Below are positions 11,164 to 48,262 of a stretch of DNA of 64,000 nt, piece after piece. Source of the stretch: Mangrovibacterium lignilyticum (GTDB lineage: Bacteria > Bacteroidota > Bacteroidia > Bacteroidales > Prolixibacteraceae). Below the pieces are notes generated by a model. It was not told the origin of the DNA, searched no databases, and saw only the letters and a program-made list of their open reading frames with translations. A program made the position numbers and the translations under genes. The stretch covers positions 682,001 to 746,000 of the forward strand of contig NZ_WKLH01000002.1 in the NCBI RefSeq assembly GCF_010882175.1, read 5' to 3'. The stretch's first letter is position 1, and each line of letters starts with the position of its first letter.

Positions 11164-12252
11164 CTATTCCGGCCACTGTTCGTAAACTATTTTCTCAGTG
11201 TCCAGCTGTGTTGGATCGATCACCACGTGTTTTATACGTTCGCGTCGCCAGGTATAAACCACATGCACCAAACCATCGGAGGTTTGAATAACCGACGGAT
11301 AAGAATACTGGCTAATTTCCGAATCTTCCAGAACCAAAGCTGCCTCCCAATGCTTGCCGTCTTTCGAGATCGCCACGTTCAACGGTGTCCGGTAGCCTTT
11401 GGGAGCATTCACCGGCGTCTTCACGTGATTGTACACAATGAGCTGACGGCCGTCTTTCAAACTTACCGCATCGATTCCTGAGTTGTTACTCGGCAAACCG
11501 GAAGGCTGCATCAGCGACCATGTTTTACCCTGATCAGCCGACCAGGACGAACCGATGACAGCATTTCTGGTACGGGTAAGGCTTTGCATCCGTCCGTCAG
11601 CATAGATCAGCAATGTGGGCTGTATAGCCGAATATATTTTACCATCGTTGATGTAGTCGCCCTTCTCCCAAGTTTTTCCTTCATCCTGAGTAAACTCAAA
11701 ATAGGTCCTCCACCCGCCATCACCTTCGACACTGGTTGGACAAATCAAAGATCCGTCGGCCAGCAAAAGCGGTTTATTTTTCACTGGCCCGTAAATGCCT
11801 TGTGGCAGGCGTTCAGGCTCCGACCATGTTTTTCCATTATCAGACGAACGTATCATCAGTCCCCACCATTCCGAAGGTTTCGGGCCAACTTTATAAAATA
11901 ACAGCAGATCACCGCCAGGCATTTGAAACAACACCGGATTCCAACTCGGGTAACGCAACGTGTCGTTTTGCACGCCGTTTGCCACCTCCACTGCTTCAGT
12001 CCATTTGCCGTTTTCATTGCGGCTCACCCAAATACCAACGTCGGGATTTCGTTCGCGGGTTCCTCCAAACCAAGCAGAGACTAATCCGGTCGGAGTTTCG
12101 GCAATCGTTGCAGAATGACAGGATGGATAAGGCGCTTCAGTGTAAATAAACTCGTCAACCAAAATGCCTTTTTTCCATTTATTTTTTTGAGCTGATGCCG
12201 GCAAACTAAAAATGAGCCCAAGCAATACAGCCACCAATACTGTTTTTTTCAT
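11164..12252 (-). CDS. Secreted Asp-box (BNR/sialidase-superfamily) beta-propeller hydrolase
   Basis: A 362-residue protein with a signal peptide ending PASAQ and at least three Asp boxes: SSDNGKTWSEP (about 135), TQDEGKTWEKG (about 190) and SADQGKTWSLM (about 235). WFGGTRERNPDVGIWVSR (about 61-78) is typical of the BNR_2 branch, which is often labelled exo-sialidase. Sialic acid is unlikely in a pectin locus. As I recall, a GH33-type module of the B. thetaiotaomicron RG-II system releases the sialic-acid-like sugar Dha. The position downstream of a putative Dha catabolic cassette makes a ulosonic-acid hydrolase a reasonable guess. Fold confident, substrate inferred. Confidence 0.7.
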   Translation of the reverse strand: MKKTVLVAVLLGLIFSLPASAQKNKWKKGILVDEFIYTEAPYPSCHSATIAETPTGLVSAWFGGTRERNPDVGIWVSRNENGKWTEAVEVANGVQNDTLRYPSWNPVLFQMPGGDLLLFYKVGPKPSEWWGLMIRSSDNGKTWSEPERLPQGIYGPVKNKPLLLADGSLICPTSVEGDGGWRTYFEFTQDEGKTWEKGDYINDGKIYSAIQPTLLIYADGRMQSLTRTRNAVIGSSWSADQGKTWSLMQPSGLPSNNSGIDAVSLKDGRQLIVYNHVKTPVNAPKGYRTPLNVAISKDGKHWEAALVLEDSEISQYSYPSVIQTSDGLVHVVYTWRRERIKHVVIDPTQLDTEKIVYEQWPE

Positions 12253-12269: not shown

Positions 12270-13835
12270 TTACAATTTGCACTCCAGTTTATGAAGTGTT
12301 GCTGTGCGACCAACTTCTTTGCCATCAACCAAGATGTAAAGACCTTTGCCATGATTGTATTTTTCACCGGTTTTATCCCAAACGATGGTCAGCATTTTAC
12401 CATGATAAAGCACGTTATCGAGGCAAAACCAGTCCCATTTTCCTTCCGGAATCAATGGGTTTACTTCAATCATTTCATCAGCACGCGGACGTAATCCAAC
12501 CAAGCCGGTGATGACCAAATCGTTAAAGGTTGAATGGTTGTAATAGCGGCTACGTTCCTGGTCGCCTTTCAGCCAGTAGCCGGTAACTTCATCCAGGTAC
12601 TCACCCACATACGGGCGTCCGCGGTAATATTGCGACTCGACATACAATTCCATTTGGCGGAAGTAGACGCTATCGGTCACTACATCCTGATTATAATTGT
12701 TGAGCAAATTGGCTAAACCAGTCAATGTTTGAGCTGTTGCGAACGGCCAAATAGCGCCATCCCACTCACACTTACAACAACCATGCGATCGGAAATCGGG
12801 ATGGCGACGCTCAGCAGTCGTCAATCCGAAAGGAGCTGAGAAGCCATTATTATCGATAATCTGGTCCCAAGCCACCGACTGCGATGGGGTAGGTAAATTG
12901 AAATACCAGGGAATGAATCCAATCTGTTCGCGGACCTTTGCAAAACCACCCGACTCCTTCACTGTCTCAAAAAACTGATCTTCCGAATCCCAAAGATTTT
13001 TATCGATCAGTTCTTTCAGCGTATCGGCTTTTGCCGCATATAAAGTTGAAGTTTCATTATCGTCCTTCAGGCGGGCAATTTCTGAAATCGCTTCAGCATT
13101 TCCGCACATATAACTGTTGATCGTAGGACGTTCATTTTTCACGTGTCTTCCACCGCTGATTTGTTCTTCCATGCCATCCTTCACATCGTTCTGCCAAAAA
13201 AGCCCGTTTGATGTGCGTCGTTCCTGCTCCCAGCGGTTGTAGTCAGTTGTCAAATCCGGTAATAGATCCACCAAATAGTTTTTATCGCTATTCACGTAGT
13301 AAGCTTGCAATAAAGCATAAGGAGTCCAGCTACTGAATTTGTGCAATTTACCCATTGGTTTGCCATCATTACCACGGTACCAAACATGTACATATTGCTC
13401 AATGTATTCAGGATTATGTAACCAACGGCCCTCCATTATATGGTGCCCCATGGCACAAGCAATCAAGTTATACTTATCGGCATAAGGACGGTCAATCAAA
13501 AATTCAGTGATTCCCCAACCTGCCGGAGTTTCTCTGATGTGCTTGCGGTAAGTCCACCAGCGATAGTAATAGATTTCTTCGAAGTTATCCTGTGGGCATT
13601 CAAACAAAGGAATATTTGTTTTCATCCAATCCCAGGCTTCTGCGTTCGGAATGGCAAACGATAAATTCTCATCTTCCATGCGGTTGAAATAATCCACATA
13701 GTGTTTAAAATCGTCAACCTTTAAAATGCTCTTATCTTTCGATTTTCCGGCGGCTAAAAGGTTTCCCTGGCTTAAACCTGTCAGGGAAACTAACAAAACC
13801 ATGATGTATAAAGAGACTGTTCTATTGAAATTCAT
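12270..13835 (-). CDS. Secreted (alpha/alpha)6-barrel glycoside hydrolase, family unassigned
   Basis: A 521-residue protein with a signal peptide (ends near LLAAGKS). Stretches such as SNGLFWQNDVKDGMEEQISGG, PTINSYMCGNAEAISEIARL and EWDGAIWPFATAQTLTGLANLL are typical of six-hairpin glycosidases related to GH63/MGH1-like enzymes. The repeated pattern of aromatic and acidic residues at helix ends fits a glycosidase active site, but I cannot name the catalytic pair safely. It is separated from the next gene by only 3 bases and from 11164-12252 by 17 bases, so it belongs to the same operon. A role in trimming RG-II or other pectin side chains is inferred from position only. Confidence 0.6.
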   Translation of the reverse strand: MNFNRTVSLYIMVLLVSLTGLSQGNLLAAGKSKDKSILKVDDFKHYVDYFNRMEDENLSFAIPNAEAWDWMKTNIPLFECPQDNFEEIYYYRWWTYRKHIRETPAGWGITEFLIDRPYADKYNLIACAMGHHIMEGRWLHNPEYIEQYVHVWYRGNDGKPMGKLHKFSSWTPYALLQAYYVNSDKNYLVDLLPDLTTDYNRWEQERRTSNGLFWQNDVKDGMEEQISGGRHVKNERPTINSYMCGNAEAISEIARLKDDNETSTLYAAKADTLKELIDKNLWDSEDQFFETVKESGGFAKVREQIGFIPWYFNLPTPSQSVAWDQIIDNNGFSAPFGLTTAERRHPDFRSHGCCKCEWDGAIWPFATAQTLTGLANLLNNYNQDVVTDSVYFRQMELYVESQYYRGRPYVGEYLDEVTGYWLKGDQERSRYYNHSTFNDLVITGLVGLRPRADEMIEVNPLIPEGKWDWFCLDNVLYHGKMLTIVWDKTGEKYNHGKGLYILVDGKEVGRTATLHKLECKL

Positions 13836-13838
13836 TTT

Positions 13839-15683
13839 CTATAAATCTTTTGTCGTTAACGAATAAATTGAAAAGCGAGCAAGCGGCGCCGGTTTTCCGG
13901 TTTCCTTCAGGTCATAATCCTGATCGGTAGGCGTATCCACATCCGGGAACCGACGAACATCTCCGGTCCGGAAAGTCACGCGCTCAACAGCATGCACTGG
14001 AGCGAAACAAAGGCCGGTCGACTTTTTCTCACCATTTACAAAGACATGATAAAAGCGATTTCCCGCAGTCAATTCAATCTTAATGTCATATTCTTTTCCA
14101 TCTTCATAGCTCAGGATATTCTTCATCCGGTAACCATTCTTTTGCTGCAATTGCCCCTCGCCGTTGAAAGATAAACGTAAAGCGGCTGTTCCCTTTTCAT
14201 CAACCAGCTCAACATCCAACTGCCCGTGATCATTTTGAGCTGCTGCTATTTTGAACTCGACAGAAACGTTGGCTGTCCGCGGAAAAAGACGTTCTGCTTT
14301 GGCATAATCAGATTTATCCTGATCGTTCAACACCAGGCACCGCGTTCCGCTGGCATCTTTCTCGATAGCAACACGCGCCCAAACAGGGCTAAAAATGTTC
14401 CACCGATCCAATTCTTTTCCTTCCGGCATCTGGTTGAAAACATCGTTAACATCCGAAGTTTCTTTGTCAACAACCGGAACAGGAACCTTGGAAACCCAAA
14501 TATCTTCTTTGTTCATGCTGTAAGTCACCCACATATTACCACCGTTAGGAGTACCGTTTCCTTCGGCAATACCTCGGACATATTGCGGTCCGTACGATTT
14601 GTAGTTTCCGCCGTAACGCATCGGCGAAATTTCGCCATTCACTAAGAGCAAATTCGTATAATTCAAACCATCGTCGCTGGTCGAAACAGCCAGAGGCCAA
14701 CGAAAGTCAGAAGGATTGTAAACCGTAGCATAATGACCATCAGAAGTGCGTTGTCCCCAAATTTTTGCGTTACTGTTTACAAACCCCGGTGCACGCGTTG
14801 GTTTTGTCCAGGTCTTTCCCTCATCTTCACTAATTGCAGTAAGGGCGTGTTTCCATAAACCAACCACTTTACCGTCAGCTAAATGATAAAAGTTAAATGC
14901 TTTGTACTCGCCTTTCAGTGAGATCAACGGATCGTCACGGTCTGCTTCCTCGTTCCATTGTTGCACCATCAACCGGTTCGCCAACAATTCGTCGCAAGCC
15001 TTTACAAATGCTTTTTCCTTGCTCTTCTTATAAAAAGGAAGTGTTGTATTTTTTTCGTTCCAGTTGTGGTTGTATCGAATGAAATAAATTGGTCCCCAGC
15101 TACCATCTGCCTTTATTTCGCGAACCACGCGACCGATTCCGTTTCCGTCGTTCGGACTGTCCTTTTCATTTAACGAAATAGCCATGTAGGCCAATACCAA
15201 TAGTTTGTTGTTTGAACTGACATAAAAGCCCATGCGCTGGTGATTCACCGATTGCAAATTGCGTGCAACGGCTGTATCTCCTTCCTTACTGAATCCATCG
15301 GGAATATCATATGCCGGGAAGATGACCTCTGGTTTCGTCCACTCGCTACCTTCTTTCGATGTCTGAATCAATGTGGCACCCGGAGCAATGTGCTCACCCA
15401 CCGGGTCGCTCAAATATTCGAGGAAGAAAGTGTTGTTCCAGTAAGCGATCATTGGCGCATGGTTATAGGTCCAACCCAAGCCATCCGCCATCTCCGGGAA
15501 TTCGCGATTTGCTCTGAAAGTTTCAATGTTGTGAACACCTAAAACAGGTGCTAGCTGCCCGTGGTGATAATCGGGATTATTTAAGGTTTTTCCGGTATAA
15601 GAAGGCAATTCCTGAGCCTGCGACAGCCCGGTTACAGCCGTTACCAGAAAAAACAAGTTGATTAATTTCTTTCCTAAGTTCAT
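13839..15683 (-). CDS. Secreted Asp-box beta-propeller with C-terminal concanavalin-like domain
   Basis: A 614-residue protein. After the signal peptide (ends SQAQ), residues about 40-430 form a sialidase-superfamily propeller: QTSKEGSEWTKP (about 107) and SEDEGKTWTKP (about 286) are Asp-box variants, and STSDDGLNYTNL (about 335) is a degenerate one. Residues about 440-614 (NVSVEFKIAAAQNDHGQLDVEL, YDIKIELTAGNRFYHVFVNG) look like a LamG or 3-keto-disaccharide-hydrolase type beta-sandwich. Propellers of this general type include sialidases, rhamnosidases of GH145 and glucuronate lyases of PL27; I cannot choose. It is preceded by a terminator-like hairpin, so its expression may be attenuated relative to the upstream genes. 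Confidence 0.6.
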   Translation of the reverse strand: MNLGKKLINLFFLVTAVTGLSQAQELPSYTGKTLNNPDYHHGQLAPVLGVHNIETFRANREFPEMADGLGWTYNHAPMIAYWNNTFFLEYLSDPVGEHIAPGATLIQTSKEGSEWTKPEVIFPAYDIPDGFSKEGDTAVARNLQSVNHQRMGFYVSSNNKLLVLAYMAISLNEKDSPNDGNGIGRVVREIKADGSWGPIYFIRYNHNWNEKNTTLPFYKKSKEKAFVKACDELLANRLMVQQWNEEADRDDPLISLKGEYKAFNFYHLADGKVVGLWKHALTAISEDEGKTWTKPTRAPGFVNSNAKIWGQRTSDGHYATVYNPSDFRWPLAVSTSDDGLNYTNLLLVNGEISPMRYGGNYKSYGPQYVRGIAEGNGTPNGGNMWVTYSMNKEDIWVSKVPVPVVDKETSDVNDVFNQMPEGKELDRWNIFSPVWARVAIEKDASGTRCLVLNDQDKSDYAKAERLFPRTANVSVEFKIAAAQNDHGQLDVELVDEKGTAALRLSFNGEGQLQQKNGYRMKNILSYEDGKEYDIKIELTAGNRFYHVFVNGEKKSTGLCFAPVHAVERVTFRTGDVRRFPDVDTPTDQDYDLKETGKPAPLARFSIYSLTTKDL

Positions 15684-15767: not shown

Positions 15768-16706
15768 CTAATTCTCAGTGTCTGCAATCGTCTTTTTCAT
15801 CAAGGCGTCAACAACCGATTGTTTCGCCTTAAAAATCGTGCCATGTTTGTGTCCTTCCGGCAACGATACCTGGTCGGAAATATCCTCGAACGATTTGAAA
15901 TCGCCCGTACGAGCACATCCGTATTTCTTGTTCCCATAGTCGTCGTAGTAAATCAGGTAGTCCTCGCCCACCTTCACTACTGTTGGTCCTTCGGATAAAA
16001 ATCCGGTGAACGGCTCCGAAATATCATTCCATGGGCCTAATGGTGTTTCACCAAAAGCCACTTTTATGTTTCGGTTCGGTCGCGTGTTGTCTTTTAAAAC
16101 CAGCACATAATCTTTTACTCCCCGCTTCACAATTACACAATCGATCACGCTAAAGTCCGGATCGAGAAATAATTTGGTGTCGGTAAAGCTTTTGAAGTCT
16201 TTCGTGGTGGTGTAATACATCCGGTGGTTATTCTTTTCTTCTTCCTCCCCTTTTTCAAATTTGAACGGGATAGTAGAAGCCCAAATAATGATGAAGCGGT
16301 CGTTGTCGTCATCGTAGAAAAGCTCGGGAGCCCAAACGTTCACCGTTGCCGTATCGGTCATCACCGTGATGAACTGTTCTTCCGACCAATGAATCAAATC
16401 CTTTGAGTTGGCATAGCCAAACCCCAGATCACCGCGCCAGGATGATGTCCAGACCATGTGAAAAGTGCCGTCTGGTCCTTGCACCACCGAAGGATCACGC
16501 ATCACTTTTTGCTGGCCAACTTCTGGTTTTAGCCAGGGACCACCCAAATCGTTCCAATGGTAGCCATCTTCGCTGTATGCCAGAAACAATCCCTTGTCGG
16601 CCGGTTCGCGAAATGTACTGAAAACGTATACTCCCTTTTCCTTCGAGCAGGAAATCAGCGCCAAAAGAGCAATTCCAAATGCTACTATTTGATTTCTCAT
16701 GATCAT
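15768..16706 (-). CDS. GH43-type five-bladed beta-propeller glycosidase (lipoprotein)
   Basis: A 312-residue lipoprotein (lipobox LALISC, Cys20). The GH43 catalytic triad is visible: Asp71 in MRDPSVV (base), Asp189 in SVIDC (pKa modulator) and Glu239 in LSEGPTVV (acid). WAPELFYD at about 125-132 is a family signature. Members usually remove arabinofuranose or xylose residues. The downstream gene order (GH140 at 1 base upstream, propellers downstream) fits trimming of apiose- and arabinose-bearing pectin side chains. A second in-frame start lies two codons later (MRNQ), without consequence for the lipobox. The substrate is not determined by sequence. Confidence 0.82.
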   Translation of the reverse strand: MIMRNQIVAFGIALLALISCSKEKGVYVFSTFREPADKGLFLAYSEDGYHWNDLGGPWLKPEVGQQKVMRDPSVVQGPDGTFHMVWTSSWRGDLGFGYANSKDLIHWSEEQFITVMTDTATVNVWAPELFYDDDNDRFIIIWASTIPFKFEKGEEEEKNNHRMYYTTTKDFKSFTDTKLFLDPDFSVIDCVIVKRGVKDYVLVLKDNTRPNRNIKVAFGETPLGPWNDISEPFTGFLSEGPTVVKVGEDYLIYYDDYGNKKYGCARTGDFKSFEDISDQVSLPEGHKHGTIFKAKQSVVDALMKKTIADTEN

Positions 16707-16707
16707 C

Positions 16708-18111
16708 CTATTTTACGCTATCCAAGACCAAAACGTAATCATGACCATCTCCGGCGTCGCCGGGAGGATCAAAGGCCTGCACACCTGTATTGTCAAAAAC
16801 TCCGATTTCTGCGTATTGCCCGTTTCTTGGATTAAACCAACTGGCCTTCACCTTTTCGCCTTCAATTTTGCCCATGTTGACCGGAATATTGCGCCCGTTG
16901 TAAGTATATACGAAAGCATAATCAGAGCCACGAGTAGCAATCAGAAAATCGTACTTTTCGCCATTCTCGCCGGCAATCAGACTTTGATCCGGTACACGCT
17001 CAAAATACGGACGCGACAACATCAATTCTTTGACATATTTCATTTGGGTTGCTCCCGGATCATTGATCGCGGCATCCCAATATTTCTTAGCTCCGTAAGC
17101 AGCTCCTTTATCCGAAGGTTGGTAAAATTGCATTACTGCACTGCTGCCGTAAGTGTAGCCAAAGGCTCCGGCAAATACCGACCAATAGGCATAACGACGA
17201 ACATCCGCATCGTTCCAGAAAGGTTGCAGCGTATCGTGTAAACCTTGCGGAATTCCTTCGTAGGAAGGTTCTCCGTCAATTGTAGGACGAACGGGAGTCA
17301 AGTCCCAGTCTTCGGTAATGTAACGCCAGTTGTCCTGTCCGTAAGCACGCTCGGTATCATCCTGATCATATCGACGGTGTCCGGATTGAATCATGTTGAA
17401 ATCCATCCAGGAGGCATCCAAAAACCAGTCGTTCGATTGCATGCGGCCACGAGGGTGAAACGTAATCAGGTGGTTCGAATCATTGTCCCGTAAGGCATTC
17501 CCTAAAATATTCCAGGTTGCGATAGAGTCGCTTCCCATGGTATCACCACCATTTAGCCAAATAATATTTTTGCGGTCTTTGTAGCGCTCAGCAAGCCATT
17601 TCCCGTAAACAGCGGCCTCATCGCGCGATACTCCTCCGTCTTTCACGTTGTTTCCCCAAACCGGAACCAAGGCCATGTAAAGCCCTTTTTGTGCTGCCAA
17701 ATCGATGGCATAGTCCATATTGTCCCAGTAATCGTATTGTATTGAATCGTTGAAATCATTTCCGGCTGTCACCTTGGGCATTGCCACATTGTGATCAACC
17801 AAAGCAGAATCGCCATAAACGTTAACCGCGCCTAAACCATGCAAAACCATGACCTGAATAACATTAAAGCCCTGTTCTTTGCGGGTTTCAAGGTATTTCC
17901 CGGTTTCTTCCCGATTCAATTTCGTAAAAAGTAACCAGCCTGTATCTCCCAACCAGAAAAACGGTTTTCCATCCTCTGTTTCGAAATAGCGATGGTTATC
18001 AGAAACTTTTAATAATTCAAGTTCATTTGATTCTTCCTTTTTCACCTGCTGTCCGCATGAGGCCAGCAGCAAAAGGGACAATCCCACAAAAATTAGATTT
18101 TTCATGTTCAT
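16708..18111 (-). CDS. GH140-like apiosidase (DUF4038) lipoprotein
   Basis: A 467-residue lipoprotein (LLASCG, Cys19). Residues about 35-370 form the DUF4038 TIM-barrel (KPFFWLGDTGWLLFTKLNREE, GFNVIQVMVL, KNIIWLNGGD, RPTIDGEPSYEGIP). Asp190 (NGGD) and Glu281 (DGEPSYE) are the likely catalytic pair. A C-terminal beta-sandwich (about 375-467, the collagenase-type putative binding domain PF12904) completes the architecture. The characterised member, BT1012 of B. thetaiotaomicron, releases apiosyl side chains of rhamnogalacturonan-II from galacturonan. This is the strongest single pointer to RG-II or apiogalacturonan as the locus substrate. It sits next to a GH43 and an SSS symporter in the operon that starts at 24054. 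Confidence 0.82.
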   Translation of the reverse strand: MNMKNLIFVGLSLLLLASCGQQVKKEESNELELLKVSDNHRYFETEDGKPFFWLGDTGWLLFTKLNREETGKYLETRKEQGFNVIQVMVLHGLGAVNVYGDSALVDHNVAMPKVTAGNDFNDSIQYDYWDNMDYAIDLAAQKGLYMALVPVWGNNVKDGGVSRDEAAVYGKWLAERYKDRKNIIWLNGGDTMGSDSIATWNILGNALRDNDSNHLITFHPRGRMQSNDWFLDASWMDFNMIQSGHRRYDQDDTERAYGQDNWRYITEDWDLTPVRPTIDGEPSYEGIPQGLHDTLQPFWNDADVRRYAYWSVFAGAFGYTYGSSAVMQFYQPSDKGAAYGAKKYWDAAINDPGATQMKYVKELMLSRPYFERVPDQSLIAGENGEKYDFLIATRGSDYAFVYTYNGRNIPVNMGKIEGEKVKASWFNPRNGQYAEIGVFDNTGVQAFDPPGDAGDGHDYVLVLDSVK

Positions 18112-18125
18112 TCAGTTTTTCAGTT

Positions 18126-19697
18126 TTATGCTTTGTTTAGTTGCTTTTTCATTTGTTTCCAGCCTTTCCATGTTAAGGATAAATCCACTTCATGACTGCT
18201 ATAAAGCAGGCTTCCCAGGTAACCGAAAATTATCAGTACTACATGGCTATACACGCCAATCATGTATTTATGATGGGCATAATTAAAATTCCCCAAATCG
18301 AGGATGATTGATTCTTTCCCGCTTGTTCCTATCGGCGTTGAAGTGAGCAAAGCCCATGCCGTAAAGACAACGCTTGCACCAATTCCCCAGTACAATCCTT
18401 TTTTGTTGGCACGACTACTGAAAATGCCCAACAGGAACATTCCGGCGATACCACCCGAGAAGATCGAATACAGGGTGAAGATGATTCCGAGCACTCCTTC
18501 ACTTCCGGCATTCACATAAAACAGAGCGACAGCAATTGCTCCCAGACCAGCCAGAACGATGAAAATTCGTCCTGCCATCAGTTGTTGTTTGTCGGTGCTT
18601 CTTGGTTTGAATCGTTTGTAATAATCTTCAGTCAGAATCGCAGATAAACAGTTCAAATCCGAGTCCAGACTCGAGATCGCAGCAGCCATCAATGCAGAAA
18701 GAATCAGGCCGACAATTCCAACGGGCAATTTCGTTAGGATAAAATACGGGAAAACGGCATCTGCCTCGATCCCGGCAGGCAAGCTATCGCCTGTAATTTG
18801 GTAATATGAAAACAGTGCTGTACCAATAAACATGAACATTCCCCACACAGGCACACTCAGCAAAACGCCAATCAGTGATGCACGAATCGCATCCTTATCA
18901 GACTTCGCTGTTAAATAGCGTTGGACAATGGTTTGGTCGGTTCCGTATTTCTGAATGGCATAGAATACACCATTCAGAGCCATCACAATAAAGGTGAGAT
19001 TGACGAAGTCCCAGTCGAAAGGTCCAAAACCGATGTGACCGTTCGCCATCGCAACATTCCACACAGCGACAGGGCCACCTTCCGGAGTAAAAAGTAAGAT
19101 CAACATAGCAATTACTCCCCCAACAATCAAGAGAAATCCCTGGATCACATCCAGCCAGATAACTGCTTCGATACCTCCCAGCATGGTCAGTAGAATTACA
19201 GCAGCACCAATAACCCAGATGATGGTACTTGTTTCAATCCCAATCATTTTACTTAAGGCCAGAGAGATCAAAAAGAACACGGTTCCCATTTTTGAGAAGT
19301 GTGTTAAAATGAAACTCAGCGACGTGTAGAAACGAGCAAAAAGGCCGAAACGCTTTTCAAAATACTCGTAGGTACTAAGACGGATCACGTGACGGAACAA
19401 AGGCACCACAACTCCCACAATTGCCACCAGTACGATGGGGACCATCAACCCTTGCACTAAGCGAATCCAGTTGGAAGTAAAACCTTCACCCGGATAAGCT
19501 AAAAAAGTAATACTACTAATCAGCGTAGCTAAAATAGAAATCCCGATTGCCCATGATGGGATCGAGCCGGCTGCCTTAAAGTAGTTGTCTGTATCTTTCT
19601 GTTTTTTCGAAAACCAAAATCCGACTCCCAGCGATACCGCCAGGGTCAGAAACATGATAAAGTAGTCGAGAAAATGTATACTCGGAACAGGATTCAT
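18126..19697 (-). CDS. Sodium:solute symporter (SSS family)
   Basis: A 523-residue inner-membrane symporter. About 13-14 hydrophobic helices are visible, beginning IHFLDYFIMFLTLAVSLGVG. GSIPSWAIGISILATLISS and DQTIVQRYLTAKSDKDA are SSS-family signatures. Relatives carry galactose, myo-inositol or sialic acid with sodium. It lies directly between the enzymes that would release monosaccharides outside (GH140, GH43, propellers) and the four cytoplasmic sugar-acid enzymes upstream (19755-24054). It is therefore the best candidate to import their substrate. SiaT-type members of this family take a ulosonic acid, which would fit Dha; this is inference. Confidence 0.88.
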   Translation of the reverse strand: MNPVPSIHFLDYFIMFLTLAVSLGVGFWFSKKQKDTDNYFKAAGSIPSWAIGISILATLISSITFLAYPGEGFTSNWIRLVQGLMVPIVLVAIVGVVVPLFRHVIRLSTYEYFEKRFGLFARFYTSLSFILTHFSKMGTVFFLISLALSKMIGIETSTIIWVIGAAVILLTMLGGIEAVIWLDVIQGFLLIVGGVIAMLILLFTPEGGPVAVWNVAMANGHIGFGPFDWDFVNLTFIVMALNGVFYAIQKYGTDQTIVQRYLTAKSDKDAIRASLIGVLLSVPVWGMFMFIGTALFSYYQITGDSLPAGIEADAVFPYFILTKLPVGIVGLILSALMAAAISSLDSDLNCLSAILTEDYYKRFKPRSTDKQQLMAGRIFIVLAGLGAIAVALFYVNAGSEGVLGIIFTLYSIFSGGIAGMFLLGIFSSRANKKGLYWGIGASVVFTAWALLTSTPIGTSGKESIILDLGNFNYAHHKYMIGVYSHVVLIIFGYLGSLLYSSHEVDLSLTWKGWKQMKKQLNKA

Positions 19698-19754: not shown

Positions 19755-20909
19755 TTAATTTGTATCCGGTATAATACTCTCGGGCCAATTATAACTTCCT
19801 GGTTTTGTAATGAGGCTTAAACCCGGATAACCGGCAACCTCCATCTGAATTATTCCATAGTCTAACTCCCGTATCGGAGTCAACTGTTTGATGTTTAGAT
19901 TTTGGATGATTTGAGCTGCTGTTGCTCCTCCTTCAATATACAAGGCATTGATCTCAGCCAAATCGAAAACTTCTTTCACTAAAAGGCCAATTTCATTTCG
20001 AACGATTTCAGGCGGAAAATTAATTTCTTCCTGAAAGATCGTTGTAACCACGACTTTGCGGTTTTGCACCAGCCAGCCAGCTATATTCTCCGCTATTTCA
20101 CGGATATGATCTTTCATCTCATCCAAATGTTGAAAATACTCCTCGGACAAGTTGATAAACATGACCCCGGCGAGCTTTAACTTTGTCATAAACTCAACGG
20201 TTTTTGGAAATGTGCTGCCAAAGATAAACAAGGCTTTAGAATCTTCAGCAATTTCCAGACTTCCGTCAACAGGTTTTTCGTCAAATTCCTTCCGAAGAAT
20301 TGCGTCGAAGAACCCCGCACCACCGGCATAAACAGTATCACTATTCATTCGTGACACCCATTGCTCCAAGTCTTCCTCCGACTCCACATCAGCAACCATA
20401 AATCCGGTCGTAACGATATCTTCGCCAAGCCCAACACTTGACACCTGTTCCGGGTAATCACAAAGCAGCTCGCAAACATTGCTCGATTTGGCCGGGAATT
20501 CAGGATCGTTGGCAAATGAGGTTTCAGCAAGCGGCGTCCCCTGAATGTAGTAAATACCTTCTTTTATAATTCGTTCGAAATGTGGATTTGCCGGGACAAC
20601 CAACACATTATCCTTTTTCGAAATATCTTGTTGTGTAATTAATTCTTCGTAAACATTACCGCGCAGTACCGAGTCAATTTTCTTGAAAATGAAGCGAGGC
20701 TTCAAATCCAGCAACTGGCTGGTTATCTTTTCAATTCGGGCCTTGGCATCCACCACCGTCTTTGAACGTGAGTCAGCGACAACAACCAACAGATCGGGAT
20801 TACCTTTTCCAGTCACCTCGGTTTCCAACAACACATTCAGACCGTGTTTTAAGCCTACTCCTCCAATTTCTGCAGCACCGGTAAAATCATCTGCTATAAC
20901 TGCTATCAT
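19755..20909 (-). CDS. dtnK: Four-carbon acid sugar kinase (DUF1537), probable D-threonate kinase
   Basis: A 384-residue cytoplasmic kinase. The N-terminal substrate domain begins IAVIADDFTGAAEIGG (residues 2-17), the hallmark of the family. The C-terminal nucleotide domain contains ALYIEGGATAAQII (about 325-338). Known members phosphorylate D-threonate, D-erythronate or 3-oxotetronates at O4. Here the next gene upstream is a PdxA homologue, with 11 bases between them. That pairing is known for D-threonate/D-erythronate 4-phosphate oxidation to DHAP and CO2, and not for the OtnC decarboxylase route. Threonate rather than erythronate is my inference from the stereochemistry of the proposed parent sugar. 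At 384 residues it is slightly short for the family but has both domains. Confidence 0.8.
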   Translation of the reverse strand: MIAVIADDFTGAAEIGGVGLKHGLNVLLETEVTGKGNPDLLVVVADSRSKTVVDAKARIEKITSQLLDLKPRFIFKKIDSVLRGNVYEELITQQDISKKDNVLVVPANPHFERIIKEGIYYIQGTPLAETSFANDPEFPAKSSNVCELLCDYPEQVSSVGLGEDIVTTGFMVADVESEEDLEQWVSRMNSDTVYAGGAGFFDAILRKEFDEKPVDGSLEIAEDSKALFIFGSTFPKTVEFMTKLKLAGVMFINLSEEYFQHLDEMKDHIREIAENIAGWLVQNRKVVVTTIFQEEINFPPEIVRNEIGLLVKEVFDLAEINALYIEGGATAAQIIQNLNIKQLTPIRELDYGIIQMEVAGYPGLSLITKPGSYNWPESIIPDTN

Positions 20910-20920
20910 ATCATTCCGGA

Positions 20921-21949
20921 TTACTGGTTCTCGTGAAGTTTGATGGCATAATCGATTGCATACACCAATGCATCATGACTCGCAATACCTTTTCCGGCAA
21001 TTTCGAATGCTGTTCCATGGTCAACCGAAGTGCGAATAATTGGCAGTCCAAGCGTGATATTTACTCCTTTCACACTCTTCATGGCTTGTTTTTCCTCATC
21101 CCAGATGAAGCCAACCAATTTGAACGGAATATGCCCCTGGTCATGATACATCGCCACACAACCATCGAAACTGCCTCCATTAGCCAATGAAAATAAAGTA
21201 TCCGGAGGGTACGGGCCTGCTGCATCAATCCCGGCTGCTTTAGCCTTTTCAACTGCTGGTAAAATCTCTTCGGTTTCTTCAGTTCCAAAAAGTCCGCCAT
21301 CGCCGGCATGCGGGTTTAAACCAGCAACGCCAATCCGGGGATTCTGAATGCCAATACGCTTGAGTGCGTCATTCGTTAAACGAATAACATCAAACACCCG
21401 GTCTTTTTTTACGCGGTCGCAAGCCTCACGAAGCGAAACATGCGTGCTGACATGTGTTACTTTAATTTTGTCATCGGCCAACAACATGGTGAATTTTTCG
21501 GTATTGGTAAAGTGTGCATAAATCTCGGTATGCCCCGAGAAGTGGTGCCCTGCTTTATTAATGGCTTCTTTGTGGATTGGCCCGGTAACGGTTCCGTCAA
21601 CCTTACCATCCATTGCCAACTCAATGGCTTTTCGCACAGCTTTAAAAGCTAAGTCACCGGCCTCAGCGCTTACCACGCTGTGTTGTATTTTTTCGAGATC
21701 GGCCGGAATGTGAAAAACATCCATTGTTCCAAATTCGAATTTCGCATCTTCAACTTTAGTTACCGGATTCAACTTCAGATCAACACCCGTCAATTGAATC
21801 GCCTTTTCCATCACTTCTGCATTTCCGATTAAAATAGGACTGCATTTTTCAAAAACAGATTTATCTGCAAAAGCTTTGGCTGCTATTTCAGGGCCAATTC
21901 CGGCAGGATCCCCCATGGTAACAGCAAGTATGATTGAATTATTTTTCAT
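20921..21949 (-). CDS. pdxA2: PdxA2-type tetronate 4-phosphate dehydrogenase
   Basis: A 342-residue NAD-dependent metalloenzyme homologous to 4-hydroxythreonine-4-phosphate dehydrogenase. AVTMGDPAGIGPE (9-21) is the family N-terminus. The metal-binding histidines are His170 (THVSTH), His214 (NPHAGDGG) and His269 (YHDQGH), spaced as in PdxA. In pyridoxal synthesis the product decarboxylates to an aminoketone; in PdxA2 clusters the analogous oxidation of D-threonate 4-phosphate gives DHAP plus CO2. Its neighbour on the downstream side is a DUF1537 kinase that makes such a phosphate, and no other pyridoxal gene is nearby. I therefore assign the catabolic role. It is 4 bases from the upstream aldolase gene. 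Confidence 0.85.
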   Translation of the reverse strand: MKNNSIILAVTMGDPAGIGPEIAAKAFADKSVFEKCSPILIGNAEVMEKAIQLTGVDLKLNPVTKVEDAKFEFGTMDVFHIPADLEKIQHSVVSAEAGDLAFKAVRKAIELAMDGKVDGTVTGPIHKEAINKAGHHFSGHTEIYAHFTNTEKFTMLLADDKIKVTHVSTHVSLREACDRVKKDRVFDVIRLTNDALKRIGIQNPRIGVAGLNPHAGDGGLFGTEETEEILPAVEKAKAAGIDAAGPYPPDTLFSLANGGSFDGCVAMYHDQGHIPFKLVGFIWDEEKQAMKSVKGVNITLGLPIIRTSVDHGTAFEIAGKGIASHDALVYAIDYAIKLHENQ

Positions 21950-21953
21950 CTTT

Positions 21954-22871
21954 TTATAATAAGTTCAGGTTTTTCAAAAAGGCGATTACATCTAAGCGGT
22001 AGGCTGTTTCGGCCGGTTCTTCCATTTGATATATTGGCGGCATCACCTGTGTTCCGCAAAGTTCTTTTACTTTCATAACCACTTTTAAGGCCGCCAAAGA
22101 TTCCCCTAGTGTCCGATCTTTTTGGTAAAGCGCTCCCAACTTGTTTGTTAGTTCCTGCAAGCGGTCCGCCTCATCCCAATTTCCTTTTAGAGCGTTGGCA
22201 TATAAATCAGCATACAATTCAGGTGTAAAGTTTCCGGTGCTTGGCACAATACCGTCCGATCCATTTTTCAAGGCGTAAGAAGATATAGCCGCCCAACCGA
22301 TTAAATGCACAAAATCAGGGCGATCTTTCCAAAGCTTCAATGCCTGGTCCAATCGCTCCACATCGCGTTCCGAATCTTTCAAGCCAACAACATTCGGGTG
22401 ATAGCTTAGCTTATCGACAATATCCAGGGGAATTGAATACCCCGTTGTAGCTGTTATATTGTAGAAAATCAAGGGCACCGGGCACGCATCAGCCAGGCTT
22501 TCGCAATATTTCGCAGCCTGCGCATCGGTGATCGGATAATAAGAGGGGACATTAGCCACAACGACATCAGCCCCCAAATCGGCGAATCGTTTAGCCATAT
22601 CAACCGTTTCAACAATACAGTTTGAAGCAATACCGGCATAAATCACCGCTTTACTTTTAGCGTGCGCCACAGTTGCTTTTACCAACTCCTCTTTTTGAGG
22701 AATCGAAAGAGAACTTGCCTCCCCAGTTGTTCCTCCAATAAAAGGAGCAACATCGTAGCGCAAAAAATTGTCGACAATTCGCCCAACAGCTTCCGTATCA
22801 ACTGTAAAATCATCTTTCAATGGTGAAATCATCGGAACGATGACTCCTTTATAGCGATTATTTTCTTTCAT
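21954..22871 (-). CDS. DapA/NanA-family class I aldolase
   Basis: A 305-residue cytoplasmic Schiff-base aldolase. The fingerprints are complete: GTTGE (47-51), the catalytic Tyr137 (IFYN) and the imine-forming Lys165 (VVGLKDS). Family members cleave or form 2-keto acids through pyruvate: dihydrodipicolinate, N-acetylneuraminate, 2-keto-3-deoxy-gluconate and others. In this operon (reductase upstream, tetronate dehydrogenase and kinase downstream) retro-aldol cleavage of a 3-deoxy-2-ulosonic or ulosaric acid is the sensible reading. I start at 22871 (MKENNRYKGVIVPM), because the 23 extra codons open to 22940 overlap the upstream gene and do not resemble the family. The substrate Dha is inferred. 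Confidence 0.82.
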   Translation of the reverse strand: MKENNRYKGVIVPMISPLKDDFTVDTEAVGRIVDNFLRYDVAPFIGGTTGEASSLSIPQKEELVKATVAHAKSKAVIYAGIASNCIVETVDMAKRFADLGADVVVANVPSYYPITDAQAAKYCESLADACPVPLIFYNITATTGYSIPLDIVDKLSYHPNVVGLKDSERDVERLDQALKLWKDRPDFVHLIGWAAISSYALKNGSDGIVPSTGNFTPELYADLYANALKGNWDEADRLQELTNKLGALYQKDRTLGESLAALKVVMKVKELCGTQVMPPIYQMEEPAETAYRLDVIAFLKNLNLL

Positions 22872-22908
22872 TTCATGTATTTGATCAGGCTTTTCAATTG
22901 CTATGTCC

Positions 22909-24054
22909 TTAAAAAGCTCGTTTATAAATTTCTTTCGCATCCTTTAGTGCGATATCACGCACATTGTTTTTCAACAAGCGTTGAACTTTAATCGCCGATT
23001 TTGCAATATCATTCAATGCTGATTCCGGGATACCAATAGCTGACAACTTAACCGGAACATCCATGGACTCCATCCATTGTTGAATAGCGGCGATCCCTGC
23101 CGAAGCATATTCCTCGTTGGTTGAACACCCTGTAATACCCAAATTTTTAGCCAGCAAAGCAAAGCGCTCGACTGCAGCGGGCATGTTGTATTCCAATACA
23201 TAGGGCAACATCACCGCATTCGATAAACCATGAGCAATCTTATACTTACTTCCGAGCGGGTAAGCCAAGGCATGAACAGCAGCCGTATTTACCGGTCCAA
23301 GACACATTCCGCCGTAAACACTACCAAGCGCCACCGCGGCGCGAGCCTCCAAATCATTACCATGATCGTAAGCCTGTTTAAGATTTTTGAAAATAAGCTG
23401 CATGCCATCCAGCGCAAAGCGATCGACTACAGGATGTGCGAAACGGTTGATGAAAGCTTCCAGACAATGCGTGAAAGCGTCAATCCCGGTAAAAGCAGTC
23501 ACTGCCGGTGGTACGCCAACAGTCAATAGCGGATCAACGTAAGCAGCATCAGGCATCAAAAACGGACTAATAACGCCTTTTTTTTCGTTGTCGGTTGTGT
23601 CAAGAAAAATCGCATTCGGTGACACTTCGCTTCCGGTACCTGCAGTCGTTGGCAAACAAGCCAAGTAGGTTGACCTCCCGTTCAGATTACCAATGCCAAT
23701 GATCTCGGTTGTAGTTTGTGTATTTCTTAGCTGCGCAGCAATGAATTTTGCAGCATCCAGCACACTTCCGCCTCCTATACCAACCACAGCGTCGGCTTCA
23801 AACTGTCTGGCTTCAGCCAGAATCTCTTCAACTTCGGCGAAACTTGGCTCAGCCGCTATTTGCTCATTTACACAAATGATGATACCAGCCTGTTCTATTT
23901 TATCGTAATATGGTTGTAACAACTGGCGGATAACCGGGATGCTCACGACAAACAAACGCTGCTGTCCCGATTTCAAGAAATCTTCGAAAAACTGAGAAAG
24001 ACTACCGTCTCCGATAACCAATTGTGAAGGCGTATTTAATTTGATTAGATCCAT
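22909..24054 (-). CDS. Iron-containing alcohol dehydrogenase
   Basis: A 381-residue group III (Fe-ADH) dehydrogenase. The nucleotide motif VGIGGGSVLDAAK is at 91-103. The metal ligands are Asp192 and His196 (GIDAFTHCLEAF), His261 (AVHALAYPLG) and His275 (KIAHGLSNAVMLP). Such enzymes reduce aldehydes or oxidise alcohols with NAD(P)H. As first gene of the operon, followed by an aldolase, a tetronate-phosphate dehydrogenase and a tetronate kinase, it is well placed to reduce the C4 aldehyde acid made by the aldolase to threonate. Transcription would start from the promoter/operator at 24158-24189. The family is certain; the substrate is inferred. Confidence 0.88.
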   Translation of the reverse strand: MDLIKLNTPSQLVIGDGSLSQFFEDFLKSGQQRLFVVSIPVIRQLLQPYYDKIEQAGIIICVNEQIAAEPSFAEVEEILAEARQFEADAVVGIGGGSVLDAAKFIAAQLRNTQTTTEIIGIGNLNGRSTYLACLPTTAGTGSEVSPNAIFLDTTDNEKKGVISPFLMPDAAYVDPLLTVGVPPAVTAFTGIDAFTHCLEAFINRFAHPVVDRFALDGMQLIFKNLKQAYDHGNDLEARAAVALGSVYGGMCLGPVNTAAVHALAYPLGSKYKIAHGLSNAVMLPYVLEYNMPAAVERFALLAKNLGITGCSTNEEYASAGIAAIQQWMESMDVPVKLSAIGIPESALNDIAKSAIKVQRLLKNNVRDIALKDAKEIYKRAF

Positions 24055-24157: not shown

Positions 24158-24189
24158 CGAAGATAATGTAAACGTTTACATTTTCCAAA
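24158..24189 (-). promoter_or_regulatory. Predicted promoter of the sugar-acid/GH140 operon
   Basis: On the minus strand TTTG (24186-24189), a 20-base spacer and TATCTTCG (24158-24165) fit the Bacteroidota TTTG-N19-21-TAnnTTTG promoter with one mismatch in the -7 box. The spacer is almost filled by a perfect LacI-type operator, so repressor binding would block RNA polymerase directly. It drives 24054 and the genes downstream. Confidence 0.6.
24165..24182. promoter_or_regulatory. LacI-family operator, perfect 18-bp palindrome
   Basis: AATGTAAACGTTTACATT is fully self-complementary with a central CG, the classic LacI/GalR operator form. It lies between the -33 and -7 elements of the operon promoter and beside the LacI gene at 24249-25244. 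Related sites occur at 25309-25326, 55898-55915 and 63898-63915. Confidence 0.85.
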
Positions 24190-24248: not shown

Positions 24249-25244
24249 CTAGCAGGAACTGCGTACTTTCAGTTCGCTGTTTAAAGTCATTTGAATACAG
24301 GGACGTTTGGGGTCTTTAATGCGTTGGATCAGCAATTCTCCGGCCCGCTTGCCAATTTCGTAGGCCGGTTGACGAACAGCAGTAAGCGGTGGATTCAGGG
24401 CGTTTGACCAATTCATATCGTCAAAACCCAAGACAGCAATATCACCGGGGATATCCAGTTTCCGCTCGTTAACCGCTTCCAAAGCTCCTAAAGTAATCAG
24501 GTTGTTACCGGTAAACAATGCATCGGGGCGATTCGCCATATTCAACAGTTTTCCAGTGAATTCAATACCACTGGTATAAGTTGAGTCACCTTGAACAATC
24601 AGGTTTTCATCGATTTCCAGACCATGATCTTTCAAGGCTTTCCGGTAACCATCCAATCGTAATCGGCTGGAAGGGATCGTAGGCAAACCACCGATATGAG
24701 CGATCCGTTTGTATCCTTTTTCAATCATATAGCTGACTGCCTGATAGGCGCCTTCTTCGTTATTCACCCAAACCACATCTACATCCACACCTTTTAACCC
24801 ACGGTCAACACAAACAACAGGCAACCCACTACGCAAAAACTTCTTGATCCGCGGGTCATCCTCATGAGCAGGTGCTGCGATTAATCCGTCAATAGCTTCC
24901 GACTCAAGAATATCGAGGTACACCGCCTCTTTCTTTTCATCCTGGTTGAAGTTACACATGATGATCACATAATTGTTCTGATAGGCTATGTCTTCGATAC
25001 CACGCAATACATCAACATAAAAAGGGTTTTGAATATCGGGAATAAGCACACCAAGCAAATTACCGGCACCACTTTTCGAACGCAGACGTTTGGCTACCCT
25101 GCTTGGTTGGTATTTAAGCTCTTTAATGGCTTTGAGAATTTTCATCCGGGTTTCTTCATTAACACTGTCGCTGTTATTCAATACCCGGGAAACAGTCGCG
25201 ATAGAAACACCCGCCCGTTTGGCGACTTCATTCATACTTGCCAT
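24249..25244 (-). CDS. LacI/GalR-family transcriptional regulator
   Basis: A 331-residue repressor. The N-terminal helix-turn-helix and hinge helix are textbook (MNEVAKRAGVSIATVSRVLN, about 4-23; YQPSRVAKRLRS, about 50-61). A periplasmic-binding-protein-like effector domain follows (LLGVLIPDIQNPFYVDVLRGIED, with HIGG, GFDDMNWS and AVRQPAYEIG motifs). It has operator-like half sites just upstream of its own start (25264-25272), suggesting autoregulation. A perfect operator lies in the promoter of the operon that follows it. Further similar sites lie before the GH78 operon and the ECF sigma gene, so it may be the local master repressor. The effector is unknown; an intermediate of sugar-acid catabolism is the natural guess. 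Confidence 0.92.
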   Translation of the reverse strand: MASMNEVAKRAGVSIATVSRVLNNSDSVNEETRMKILKAIKELKYQPSRVAKRLRSKSGAGNLLGVLIPDIQNPFYVDVLRGIEDIAYQNNYVIIMCNFNQDEKKEAVYLDILESEAIDGLIAAPAHEDDPRIKKFLRSGLPVVCVDRGLKGVDVDVVWVNNEEGAYQAVSYMIEKGYKRIAHIGGLPTIPSSRLRLDGYRKALKDHGLEIDENLIVQGDSTYTSGIEFTGKLLNMANRPDALFTGNNLITLGALEAVNERKLDIPGDIAVLGFDDMNWSNALNPPLTAVRQPAYEIGKRAGELLIQRIKDPKRPCIQMTLNSELKVRSSC

Positions 25245-25263: not shown

Positions 25264-25326
25264 GTTTACATTTATACTGATTTCCCTAAAGTAGAAAAAA
25301 TCACGGCAAATGTAAACGATTTCATT
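25264..25326. promoter_or_regulatory. LacI-type operator sites in the lacI/GH105 divergent region
   Basis: AATGTAAACGATTTCATT (25309-25326) keeps the full left half of the palindrome at 24165, and GTTTACATT (25264-25272) is an isolated right half. They lie between the divergent lacI and GH105 genes. I could not place a convincing -7/-33 pair for either gene here. Confidence 0.55.
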
Positions 25327-27733: not shown

Positions 27734-29773
27734 CTATCTCCTAACGGGAATCCAAACGCTCATCTCCCCTCTTCCCCGGTTGTCCCAAGCGTAGTAGGGC
27801 ACAAATTTGAGCGGGATCCGCTCAGCCGGTTGAACCGAGTTGATGGGCTGGTACAATTTATTTTTCCAACTGTTACCGGTCAGTACAACACCTTCGCCTT
27901 TCAAGGCAAGCATTCTGGCACCATCGATTTCGATCGCTTCCGGCTTCAGCTGCGTGGCGGCATCAACAGCGACATTGAACACATCGACCGCGTTGGGTAA
28001 ATCAGCCGTTTCCACACAATACACTACCGGTCCACGCTGCACAGCCACCAACCCGCGGGTTTCTTCCACCATCGGGTTCGCTTCCATCAACTGCACCGGC
28101 ATGGGCAAGTTCAGGCTGATTTGGTCGCCCTTTTTCCATTTGCGCGAAACGGCAACATAAGTTCCGGCTTGCACTTTCTCCGAAACAGGCTGCCCGTTCA
28201 CCTTCAGTTCGGCTCCCGGGCACCAGGCCGGAATGCGCAGGTGCAGGGTCATTTCATTTTTCAACGTCTTTTGCACGTCCAACTCAACCGCCCCGTCCCA
28301 CGGGTAATCTGTTTCCTGGTTTAGTTGAAGGACATCGCCATTTTCCAATGTTGTGTTCAGCTCATTCGCCCCGTAGAAATTCACATACAAACCATCGTTC
28401 GACAAACTGTACATGTAATTGTTGATCTCGGCAATGGTGCGAATGGTATTGGGCGGGCAGCAGTTGCAATAGCTAATGTAGGGCTCTCGATCCTTCGACC
28501 AGCGCAGATCGGGCGAAACCTCATCGGCAACGGCCAGCGGATTGGTGTAAAAATGACGGATGCCGTCGAGGCTGATGGCAGCCAGCAAACTGTTGTACAT
28601 GACCTGCTCCATCACATCGGCATACTTCGCATCGGCAGTCACCTGCAGCATGCGATAGTTCCACAACAGGTTCCCAATGTTCGCGCACGATTCGTTGTGC
28701 GCCGTCAGGTTCGGCAGTTGGTAATCCTCGCCGTACGCCTGGTGCACCTGTTGAATGGAAGGCTGGTCGTAGGTGGTTCCGTTGGGCGAAACACCGTCGT
28801 ACAGTGCGCCGCAGGCCCCGGTGATGTATAGTTTATTCTCAACCAGGTCGTGCCAAATAGCATCCAGTGCTTTCATCAGCGACTCATCGCCCGTTTCGGC
28901 ATACACATCGGCTGCTCCGGCGTACAGGTAGTTGGCGCGAACAGCATGTCCTTCAGCTTTGGTTTGCTGGCGGAAAGGAATGCGATCCTGGTTGTGATCG
29001 TGCCCGTTGTCAACCTGGTCGCGAATATCAATCAAGCCCTGAGCCAGCTCCAGGTAACGCGGATCACCCAGCGTGCGGTACATCTCGGTTACGCCCATGT
29101 AATGCGACGGACAAATGGCATTTTGCGCCAGTTCGTACGCGTGCTCTTCGTAATATTTAAACAAAAAATCGGTCGCTTTGATGGCAATATCCATCAGGTT
29201 CATTTTCCCCGTCAGGCGGTAATGCACACTAGCCGCCGTCATCAGGTGCCCCATGTTGTAGGTTTCAAAGTCCATGCGCTCGGCAAACTCCGCTTTCTTC
29301 TCCGGGTGCTCCCGCTCATTAATCATCACCGGCGTGTGAATGTAGCCATCGGCCCGTTGCGTCATGCCAATCACAGCAATGATGGAGTCGATCTTTTGAT
29401 CTAACTGTTGATCGTTTGTTTCCGCGGCCACAACAATCGCTGCTTCAAGCATTTTGTAAAAATCGCCGTCGTGAAACGGAGGACCAATATGCTCCCCATC
29501 TTTCAGTCCTGCGGCAATCTCGAAGTTGGCATAACCATGGCTGATCGAGTCGTTCAGGTACATGTCCAGCATATGCGGCATCATACTTTTCGCACACACC
29601 TGGTAGCGGTCGGCCCAAAAACCGGTGGTCCACCGCACATCCGTCAGGTTCACAGACTCCAGTTTCGCGAATTTGCTTTTCGAGGTGTTCACCAGGCTTT
29701 TATCCTGTGCCTGTGCCAACTGAAAGGTCACCAGAACCAGTAAAACCGGCGTAACAAAATATCTTTTCACCAT
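27734..29773 (-). CDS. GH127 beta-L-arabinofuranosidase
   Basis: A 679-residue secreted enzyme (signal peptide ends FQLAQAQ). The zinc-thiolate catalytic site of GH127 is visible: Glu361 and Cys363 in HNESCANIG, and Cys436, Cys438 and Cys439 in YCNCCPPN, where the last Cys is the expected nucleophile. The (alpha/alpha)6 barrel (about 40-500) is followed by beta-sandwich domains. GH127 removes beta-L-arabinofuranose. In rhamnogalacturonan-II that sugar caps the Dha residue of one side chain, so this enzyme would expose Dha. The related family GH146 cannot be fully excluded. It lies 3 bases after the GH78 gene and ends the unit. Confidence 0.88.
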   Translation of the reverse strand: MVKRYFVTPVLLVLVTFQLAQAQDKSLVNTSKSKFAKLESVNLTDVRWTTGFWADRYQVCAKSMMPHMLDMYLNDSISHGYANFEIAAGLKDGEHIGPPFHDGDFYKMLEAAIVVAAETNDQQLDQKIDSIIAVIGMTQRADGYIHTPVMINEREHPEKKAEFAERMDFETYNMGHLMTAASVHYRLTGKMNLMDIAIKATDFLFKYYEEHAYELAQNAICPSHYMGVTEMYRTLGDPRYLELAQGLIDIRDQVDNGHDHNQDRIPFRQQTKAEGHAVRANYLYAGAADVYAETGDESLMKALDAIWHDLVENKLYITGACGALYDGVSPNGTTYDQPSIQQVHQAYGEDYQLPNLTAHNESCANIGNLLWNYRMLQVTADAKYADVMEQVMYNSLLAAISLDGIRHFYTNPLAVADEVSPDLRWSKDREPYISYCNCCPPNTIRTIAEINNYMYSLSNDGLYVNFYGANELNTTLENGDVLQLNQETDYPWDGAVELDVQKTLKNEMTLHLRIPAWCPGAELKVNGQPVSEKVQAGTYVAVSRKWKKGDQISLNLPMPVQLMEANPMVEETRGLVAVQRGPVVYCVETADLPNAVDVFNVAVDAATQLKPEAIEIDGARMLALKGEGVVLTGNSWKNKLYQPINSVQPAERIPLKFVPYYAWDNRGRGEMSVWIPVRR

Positions 29774-35450: not shown

Positions 35451-35460
35451 AGTATTTCTT

Positions 35461-44147: not shown

Positions 44148-48240
<4,093 letters not shown>

Positions 48241-48262
48241 TTTCCTACTTTTTTGACGTTAC

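Follow-up and report, generated by a model that had tools for sequence, protein, structure and literature searches.

A gene block for the putative utilization of the rhamnogalacturonan II sugar Dha via D-threonate in Mangrovibacterium lignilyticum

A 64,000-nucleotide stretch of Mangrovibacterium lignilyticum contig NZ_WKLH01000002.1 (the window; all positions given here are positions within it) contains a cassette of five minus-strand genes transcribed in the order iron-containing alcohol dehydrogenase (Fe-ADH), aldolase, PdxA2-type dehydrogenase (PdxA), DUF1537 kinase and sodium-solute symporter (SSS). This cassette and the genes for degradation of rhamnogalacturonan II (RG-II) that follow it most probably form an operon for utilization of the RG-II sugar 3-deoxy-D-lyxo-hept-2-ulosaric acid (Dha), a rare acidic sugar of plant cell walls, by a route via D-threonate. 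Such a route had been put forward in an original prediction made from the DNA letters and translated open reading frames (ORFs). The present analysis supported that interpretation, mainly through the GH143- and GH142-type glycoside hydrolase (GH) genes of the block, the co-occurrence and frequent linkage of cassette and GH143 in several families, and a shared operator.

In the proposed pathway, GH142 would strip L-arabinofuranose and GH143 would free Dha from chain D of RG-II outside the cytoplasm, and the SSS symporter would import the sugar. The aldolase would cut Dha between C3 and C4 to give pyruvate and the C4 aldehyde acid D-threuronate, whose aldehyde would be reduced by Fe-ADH and NAD(P)H to D-threonate. 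Phosphorylation by the kinase would generate D-threonate 4-phosphate, from which oxidation and decarboxylation by PdxA2 would release dihydroxyacetone phosphate (DHAP) and CO2, with a reduced cofactor being regained. The net conversion would be Dha + ATP to pyruvate + DHAP + CO2 + ADP and, as Fe-ADH would spend a reduced cofactor and PdxA2 would return one, could be redox-neutral if both dehydrogenases use the same cofactor. Fischer bookkeeping agreed with the earlier derivation of D-threonate from the D-lyxo configuration by cleavage and reduction, though D-xylo leads to the same product; as these two of the eight isomers fit and six are excluded, the stereochemical support is about one in four.

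Catabolism of D-threonate through the DUF1537 kinase DtnK and PdxA2 was reportedly described by Zhang et al. in 2016. That work is cited in PMC9997740 and PMC10971088, and the conversion of D-threonate to DHAP by a kinase and a 4-phosphate dehydrogenase, which the original prediction had taken to be known, does appear in PMC10079672. The window resembles this system in having a DUF1537 kinase and PdxA2 for the final two steps to DHAP but differs in that an aldolase and Fe-ADH precede them and RG-II hydrolases are joined to them, such that D-threonate would be made intracellularly rather than imported.

The four adjacent enzyme genes named in the original prediction were recovered as minus-strand ORFs at the same positions, and their Pfam matches agreed with the assigned families (Table 1). 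As 22 of 25 homologous aldolase ORFs start no more than one residue from codon 24 of the window ORF, which extends to 22940, this codon is probably the true start, giving a protein of 305 aa and abolishing the overlap with Fe-ADH. The Tyr137 and Lys165 reported earlier fitted the corrected start (Tyr160 and Lys188 of the long ORF) and were present in 30/30 sequences. With a Schiff-base Lys, the Tyr and a G-T-T-G-E motif, the protein was classed as a class I pyruvate aldolase of the dihydrodipicolinate synthase (DHDPS) superfamily. It scored below the curated equivalog cut-offs for both dapA (138 versus 206 bits) and nanA (103 versus 382 bits) and is hence neither DapA nor NanA proper. The position of the DapA Arg was occupied by Thr in 29 of the 30 cassette aldolases and by Met in the remaining one, and a GWAA loop was neutral in all 30, whereas the other four of the genome's five DHDPS proteins have Asp or Glu there; the missing Arg and neutral loop would fit a substrate with a terminal carboxylate. 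In sialic acid use, a NanA aldolase likewise occurs with a symporter. The cassette shares with that system a DHDPS-fold aldolase adjoining a sodium symporter but is set apart by the low NanA similarity and by other downstream enzymes.

For Fe-ADH, residues Asp192, His196, His261 and His275 were kept in 27/27 sequences, and the top NCBIfam score, 250 bits, was under all cut-offs. PdxA retained His170, His214 and His269, as noted earlier, in 34/34 sequences, two of which came from outside full cassettes. These Fe-ADH and PdxA residues are expected metal ligands, and the residues expected to be catalytic were likewise kept. PdxA was nearer to PDB entries 2hi1 (E 6.5e-86) and 6e85 (1.5e-84), both named D-threonate 4-phosphate dehydrogenase, than to the E. 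coli-type PdxA 1ps7 (6e-58) and, with the metal histidines retained, was assigned to PdxA2 rather than biosynthetic PdxA. The genome encodes two PdxA proteins, and the cassette one, as an additional copy, is more in keeping with catabolism than with a role in vitamin B6 metabolism. The kinase had the two-domain DUF1537 fold with conserved DD, KKIDS, GG and KPG motifs. Its best NCBIfam model was D-threonate kinase (126 bits, versus 56 for 3-oxo-tetronate kinase, both under cut-off), which was also the top model for the other four cassette kinases scanned (5/5 in total), these again scoring below cut-off. As the score was under the equivalog cut-off, the protein was filed as a DUF1537 kinase and not as DtnK itself. 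It is the only DUF1537 protein of the genome and lies ∼4 kb from the sole protein matching PF24067, the GH143 propeller family. Within the cassette, pairwise identities were correlated (rho 0.51 to 0.93), but this was not used as evidence, since shared ancestry could yield it.

The cassette is continuous with a colinear minus-strand block running from Fe-ADH through the symporter, GH140, a GH43-like protein, a propeller, an MGH1-like hydrolase, a BNR protein and an esterase to a gene at 8306-9658, with intergenic gaps of 1 to 96 nt from 24054 down to 8306. The SSS symporter and GH140 apiosidase noted earlier were both confirmed in this operon, and the symporter was part of the cassette in nearly all loci uncut by contig ends. 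Sialidase-fold propellers had also been reported; the propeller was present but corresponds more exactly to the GH143-type half of BT1020, while the GH142 half, encoded by the adjacent gene, had been overlooked. These assignments were made on the N-terminal propeller domain and the C-terminal barrel domain of BT1020, respectively. The N-terminal half of BT1020 is said to be the founding GH143 member (Ndeh et al. 2017). Published accounts identify PDB entry 5mqr as BT1020 and its GH142 activity as that of a beta-L-arabinofuranosidase (PMC7263609), identify 6GOC as BT1017, an RG-II pectin methylesterase (PMC7939467), and place Kdo (3-deoxy-D-manno-oct-2-ulosonic acid) and Dha on RG-II chains C and D, with beta1,5-linked arabinofuranose terminating chain D (PMC12282258). 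As GH142 and GH143 are both encoded in the block, the predicted Dha-uncapping and Dha-releasing enzyme types share it with the cassette. The block is like the RG-II loci of B. thetaiotaomicron in its GH143, GH142, BT1017-like and BT1012-like enzymes but has GH143 and GH142 as separate genes, with a catabolic cassette, rather than within one protein as in BT1020. A GH43-like protein adjoined GH143 in most related loci as well as in the window. The GH127 at 27734-29773, to which uncapping of Dha had been attributed, was rejected as the Dha-releasing enzyme; it was nearest to PDB 5MQO, which we take to be BT1003, an aceric acid hydrolase, and is hence probably not Dha releasing, the Dha hydrolase family being represented by the GH143 of the block.

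A LacI-family gene adjoins the cassette in the window and in many loci of the host's family. The perfect palindrome ATGTAAACGTTTACAT lies between this gene and Fe-ADH, and four copies with up to three mismatches were observed in the window versus 0.52 expected. A copy within the same mismatch limit was found no more than 300 nt before Fe-ADH in 14/14 host-family loci tested, random stretches of those loci matching equally well in 0 to 5.5 percent of draws. The operator was also present in a locus of family f65 (L126) and, before LacI only, in one of f7 (L125). The block is probably controlled by a LacI-type regulator acting at ATGTAAACGTTTACAT, and the two further copies suggest that neighboring GH78 and ECF (extracytoplasmic function) sigma gene blocks may also be governed by it.

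Table 1. Features of the window and of related loci (L numbers)
Feature	Position	Strand	Match or remark
Fe-ADH, proposed D-threuronate to D-threonate reductase	22909-24054	minus	PF00465, PF25137
DHDPS-family aldolase, proposed Dha to pyruvate + D-threuronate	21954-22871	minus	PF00701 E 5.5e-45; probable corrected start
PdxA2-type dehydrogenase, proposed D-threonate 4-phosphate to DHAP + CO2	20921-21949	minus	PF04166
DUF1537 kinase, proposed D-threonate 4-kinase	19755-20909	minus	PF07005, PF17042
SSS symporter, proposed Dha importer	18126-19697	minus	PF00474
GH140-type apiosidase	16708-18111	minus	PF13204; PDB 3kzs/5msy E 2.8e-141
GH43-like protein, adjoins GH143	15768-16706	minus	PF04616
GH143-type Dha hydrolase (predicted)	13839-15683	minus	PF24067 (BT_1020-like N-terminal propeller) E 5e-118; 5mqr residues 25-609 E 1.3e-227
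GH142-type beta-L-arabinofuranosidase	12270-13835	minus	5mqr residues 613-1104 E 8.4e-233
BNR_2 propeller protein	11164-12252	minus	PF13088 E 1.7e-96
BT1017-like RG-II pectin methylesterase	9679-11067	minus	PDB 6goc E 1.7e-140
LacI-family regulator	24249-25244	minus	PF00356, PF00532
Perfect palindrome ATGTAAACGTTTACAT, proposed LacI operator	24166-24181		112 nt before Fe-ADH
Operator-like site	25310-25325		2 mismatches; before LacI gene
Operator-like site	55899-55914		2 mismatches; before GH78 gene 52962-55748
Operator-like site	63899-63914		2 mismatches; before ECF sigma gene 63287-63835
Divergent DHDPS locus near GH143	L223:6484-9100		beside SSS symporter; 41-65 percent mutual identity among the three
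Divergent DHDPS locus near GH143	L224:8915-11446		beside SSS symporter
Divergent DHDPS locus near GH143	L219:488-1411

The arrangement of the cassette varied between families. Families f1, f7, f65, f122 and f135 had the order Fe-ADH, aldolase, PdxA2, kinase, symporter (no symporter was seen in genome G703), while those of f3, f108 and f111 had the order aldolase, symporter, Fe-ADH, PdxA2, kinase. In one f108 locus (L134), GH143 and GH142 directly precede the aldolase; in another (L136), a LacI-like gene sits between GH142 and the aldolase. The same genes thus stay grouped while their order varies, which argues for one function. An alternative is that two functions are bundled, with the aldolase and Fe-ADH serving another RG-II sugar, such as Kdo (cleaved to pyruvate and D-arabinose), and the kinase and PdxA2 acting on a free tetronate. 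Kdo is indeed an RG-II sugar, DHDPS enzymes are broad, and kinase-PdxA pairs without an aldolase were found in G051, G098, G730 and G085. Set against this, aldolase, PdxA2 and kinase remained together through the rearrangements, the loop with Asp or Glu in the four paralogues was neutral in every cassette aldolase (30/30), and cleavage of Kdo would yield no C4 acid, making this explanation unlikely.

The association of the cassette with GH143 was examined in 140 genomes of the host's family, 393 of its order, 395 of its phylum and 14 controls. The PF24067 thresholds of 380 and 280 bits were chosen after viewing gaps in the scores, and results are given for both. Genomes without any DUF1537 match were scored as cassette-free without their sequence being fetched, and only ∼3.7-kb stretches were examined for G098, G153 and G365. 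Loci truncated by contig ends (G436, G519, G418 and G033) were scored as cassettes on the genes present, as were G134, which has no Fe-ADH, and G703; G085, with kinase and PdxA only, was scored as cassette-free. The cassette was detected in 32 distinct genomes from 10 families, 29 of which have a PF24067 match of at least 280 bits. A related-locus search using the aldolase alone returned one locus.

Within the host's family, all 16 genomes with PF24067 at 394 bits or more have the cassette, and in 14 of these the two are on one contig, ∼5 to 25 kb apart (different contigs in G016 and G122). Ten more family genomes have no cassette and PF24067 scores of 286 to 357 bits; such BT1020-propeller proteins, found in G026, G089, G161, G451 and others, are possibly subfamilies with another substrate. 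In the order, 9 of the 14 genomes with at least 382 bits have the cassette, and three extra cassette genomes (f111) have scores of 284 to 302 bits, such that PF24067 was present in 12/12 cassette genomes. In the phylum sample, the cassette was present in only 2 of 18 genomes with close PF24067 (the host genome and G560) and additionally in three f135 genomes: G558, with a PF24067 match of 327 bits 10 kb from the cassette, and G601 and G703, with none. Fisher tests, with relatedness ignored, gave 4e-20 for the family (380 bits), 8e-13 (380) and 5e-18 (280) for the order, and 0.018 (380) and 0.001 (280) for the phylum. Linkage was looser outside the family, being ∼8 to 17 kb in G203, G246, G345 and G558, 646 kb in G560 and on separate contigs in the other ten.

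Several observations weigh against the Dha route. Nineteen close-GH143 genomes outside the host's family have no cassette. Conversely, G033 (host's family, 86 percent complete), G601 and G703, 3 of the 32 cassette genomes, have neither a PF24067 match nor a close GH142; the original prediction had proposed the survey as a test and named cassettes without RG-II enzymes as evidence to the contrary, so that its expectation held for the 29 genomes and in part failed for these three. The block of G134 has no Fe-ADH. No operator was found before Fe-ADH in the tested loci of f3, f7, f108, f111, f122 and f135. PdxA reached 340 bits on the NCBIfam D-threonate 4-phosphate dehydrogenase model, with a cut-off of 583, and passed only the generic pdxA model, and the kinase score lay far under the D-threonate kinase cut-off of 450.

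A further alternative is that the substrate is a different C7 3-deoxy-2-ulosaric acid, or a keto acid of similar kind, whose breakdown likewise ends in a tetronate, and that the GH143 linkage reflects a shared pectin context only. The D-xylo isomer equally yields D-threonate, GH143 is frequently without the cassette, and G601 and G703 show the reverse; the C7 ulosaric acid of RG-II is Dha, and GH143 directly adjoins the cassette in f108, leaving this explanation improbable. The G601 cassette adjoins sulfatase and BNR proteins and a GntP permease, and that of G703 is near GH127- and GH43-like proteins. Deoxy-lyxo-2-heptulosaric acid is recorded from green-algal scales (PMC10762512), and we offer as a suggestion only that algal Dha could feed the cassette in these two genomes.

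Apiose catabolism, with an OiaK-type kinase acting on apiose freed by the GH140 of the block, is very improbable: DUF1537 kinases do occur with a RuBisCO-like protein in RG-II loci of other genomes, but the window kinase had no OiaK match at E 0.001 and no RuBisCO-like protein was present among the 39 window proteins scanned. In other orders of the class, DUF1537 kinases close to GH143 have this RuBisCO-like partner; as the one scanned had OiaK as its top model (378 bits), with OiaX for the partner (499 bits; both cut-offs 700), they were assigned to an apiose-type module. Kinase, RuBisCO-like and Asp/Glu-racemase-like proteins of this OiaK/OiaX-like type were observed near GH143 or GH140 at L194:6352-11179 and L200:3862-7200. 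The cassette is like such modules in having a DUF1537 kinase within RG-II loci but has a kinase of another clade and PdxA2 as partner in place of the RuBisCO-like protein. The idea that every DUF1537 protein of RG-II loci is a Dha kinase was rejected, as a long-kinase clade accompanies the RuBisCO-like protein.

No aldolase orthologue was detected in 19/19 cassette-free close-GH143 genomes, the top matches having 21 to 31 percent identity. In G677, G665 and G693, which are cassette-free, a different, divergent DHDPS was present ∼9 to 20 kb from GH143, adjoining an SSS symporter in G677 and G665 (Table 1), and may act there as the aldolase for either Dha or Kdo. No other cytoplasmic module was recognized around GH143 in the stretches from G733, G303 and G794, which hold mostly unannotated genes. 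One of the 14 controls, Bacteroides ihuae, has a PF24067 match but lacks DUF1537.

Elsewhere in the window, a RhaT-family transporter, a URO-D (uroporphyrinogen decarboxylase)-family protein, a short-chain dehydrogenase and a mandelate-racemase-type enolase are encoded at 34392-36830 and 47476-49336 amid GH78, GH106 and GH2 genes, perhaps for the breakdown of a further sugar from RG-II or of rhamnose type. A DUF5703_N protein (36865-39186), with relatives 46 to 61 percent identical in several RG-II-type loci, may be involved in RG-II breakdown.

The enzymes that dismantle RG-II are known, while the fate of the released Dha seems undescribed: no account of Dha catabolism was found in the literature searched, which mostly did not cover subscription papers and hence does not establish absence in print. 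The block is likely to represent the first Dha catabolic pathway, a redox-neutral series in which an aldolase, a reductase, a kinase and an oxidative decarboxylase act in turn under a dedicated LacI regulator, in RG-II degraders and perhaps in degraders of Dha-rich green-algal scales, with other GH143 bearers either having a second Dha route, for which the divergent DHDPS is a candidate, or leaving Dha to neighbors. If so, a single operon would close the gap between release and use of Dha, a Dha importer and regulator would be named, and enzymes for measuring Dha would be gained. The pathway would furthermore predict a division between bacteria that eat Dha and bacteria that must leave it.

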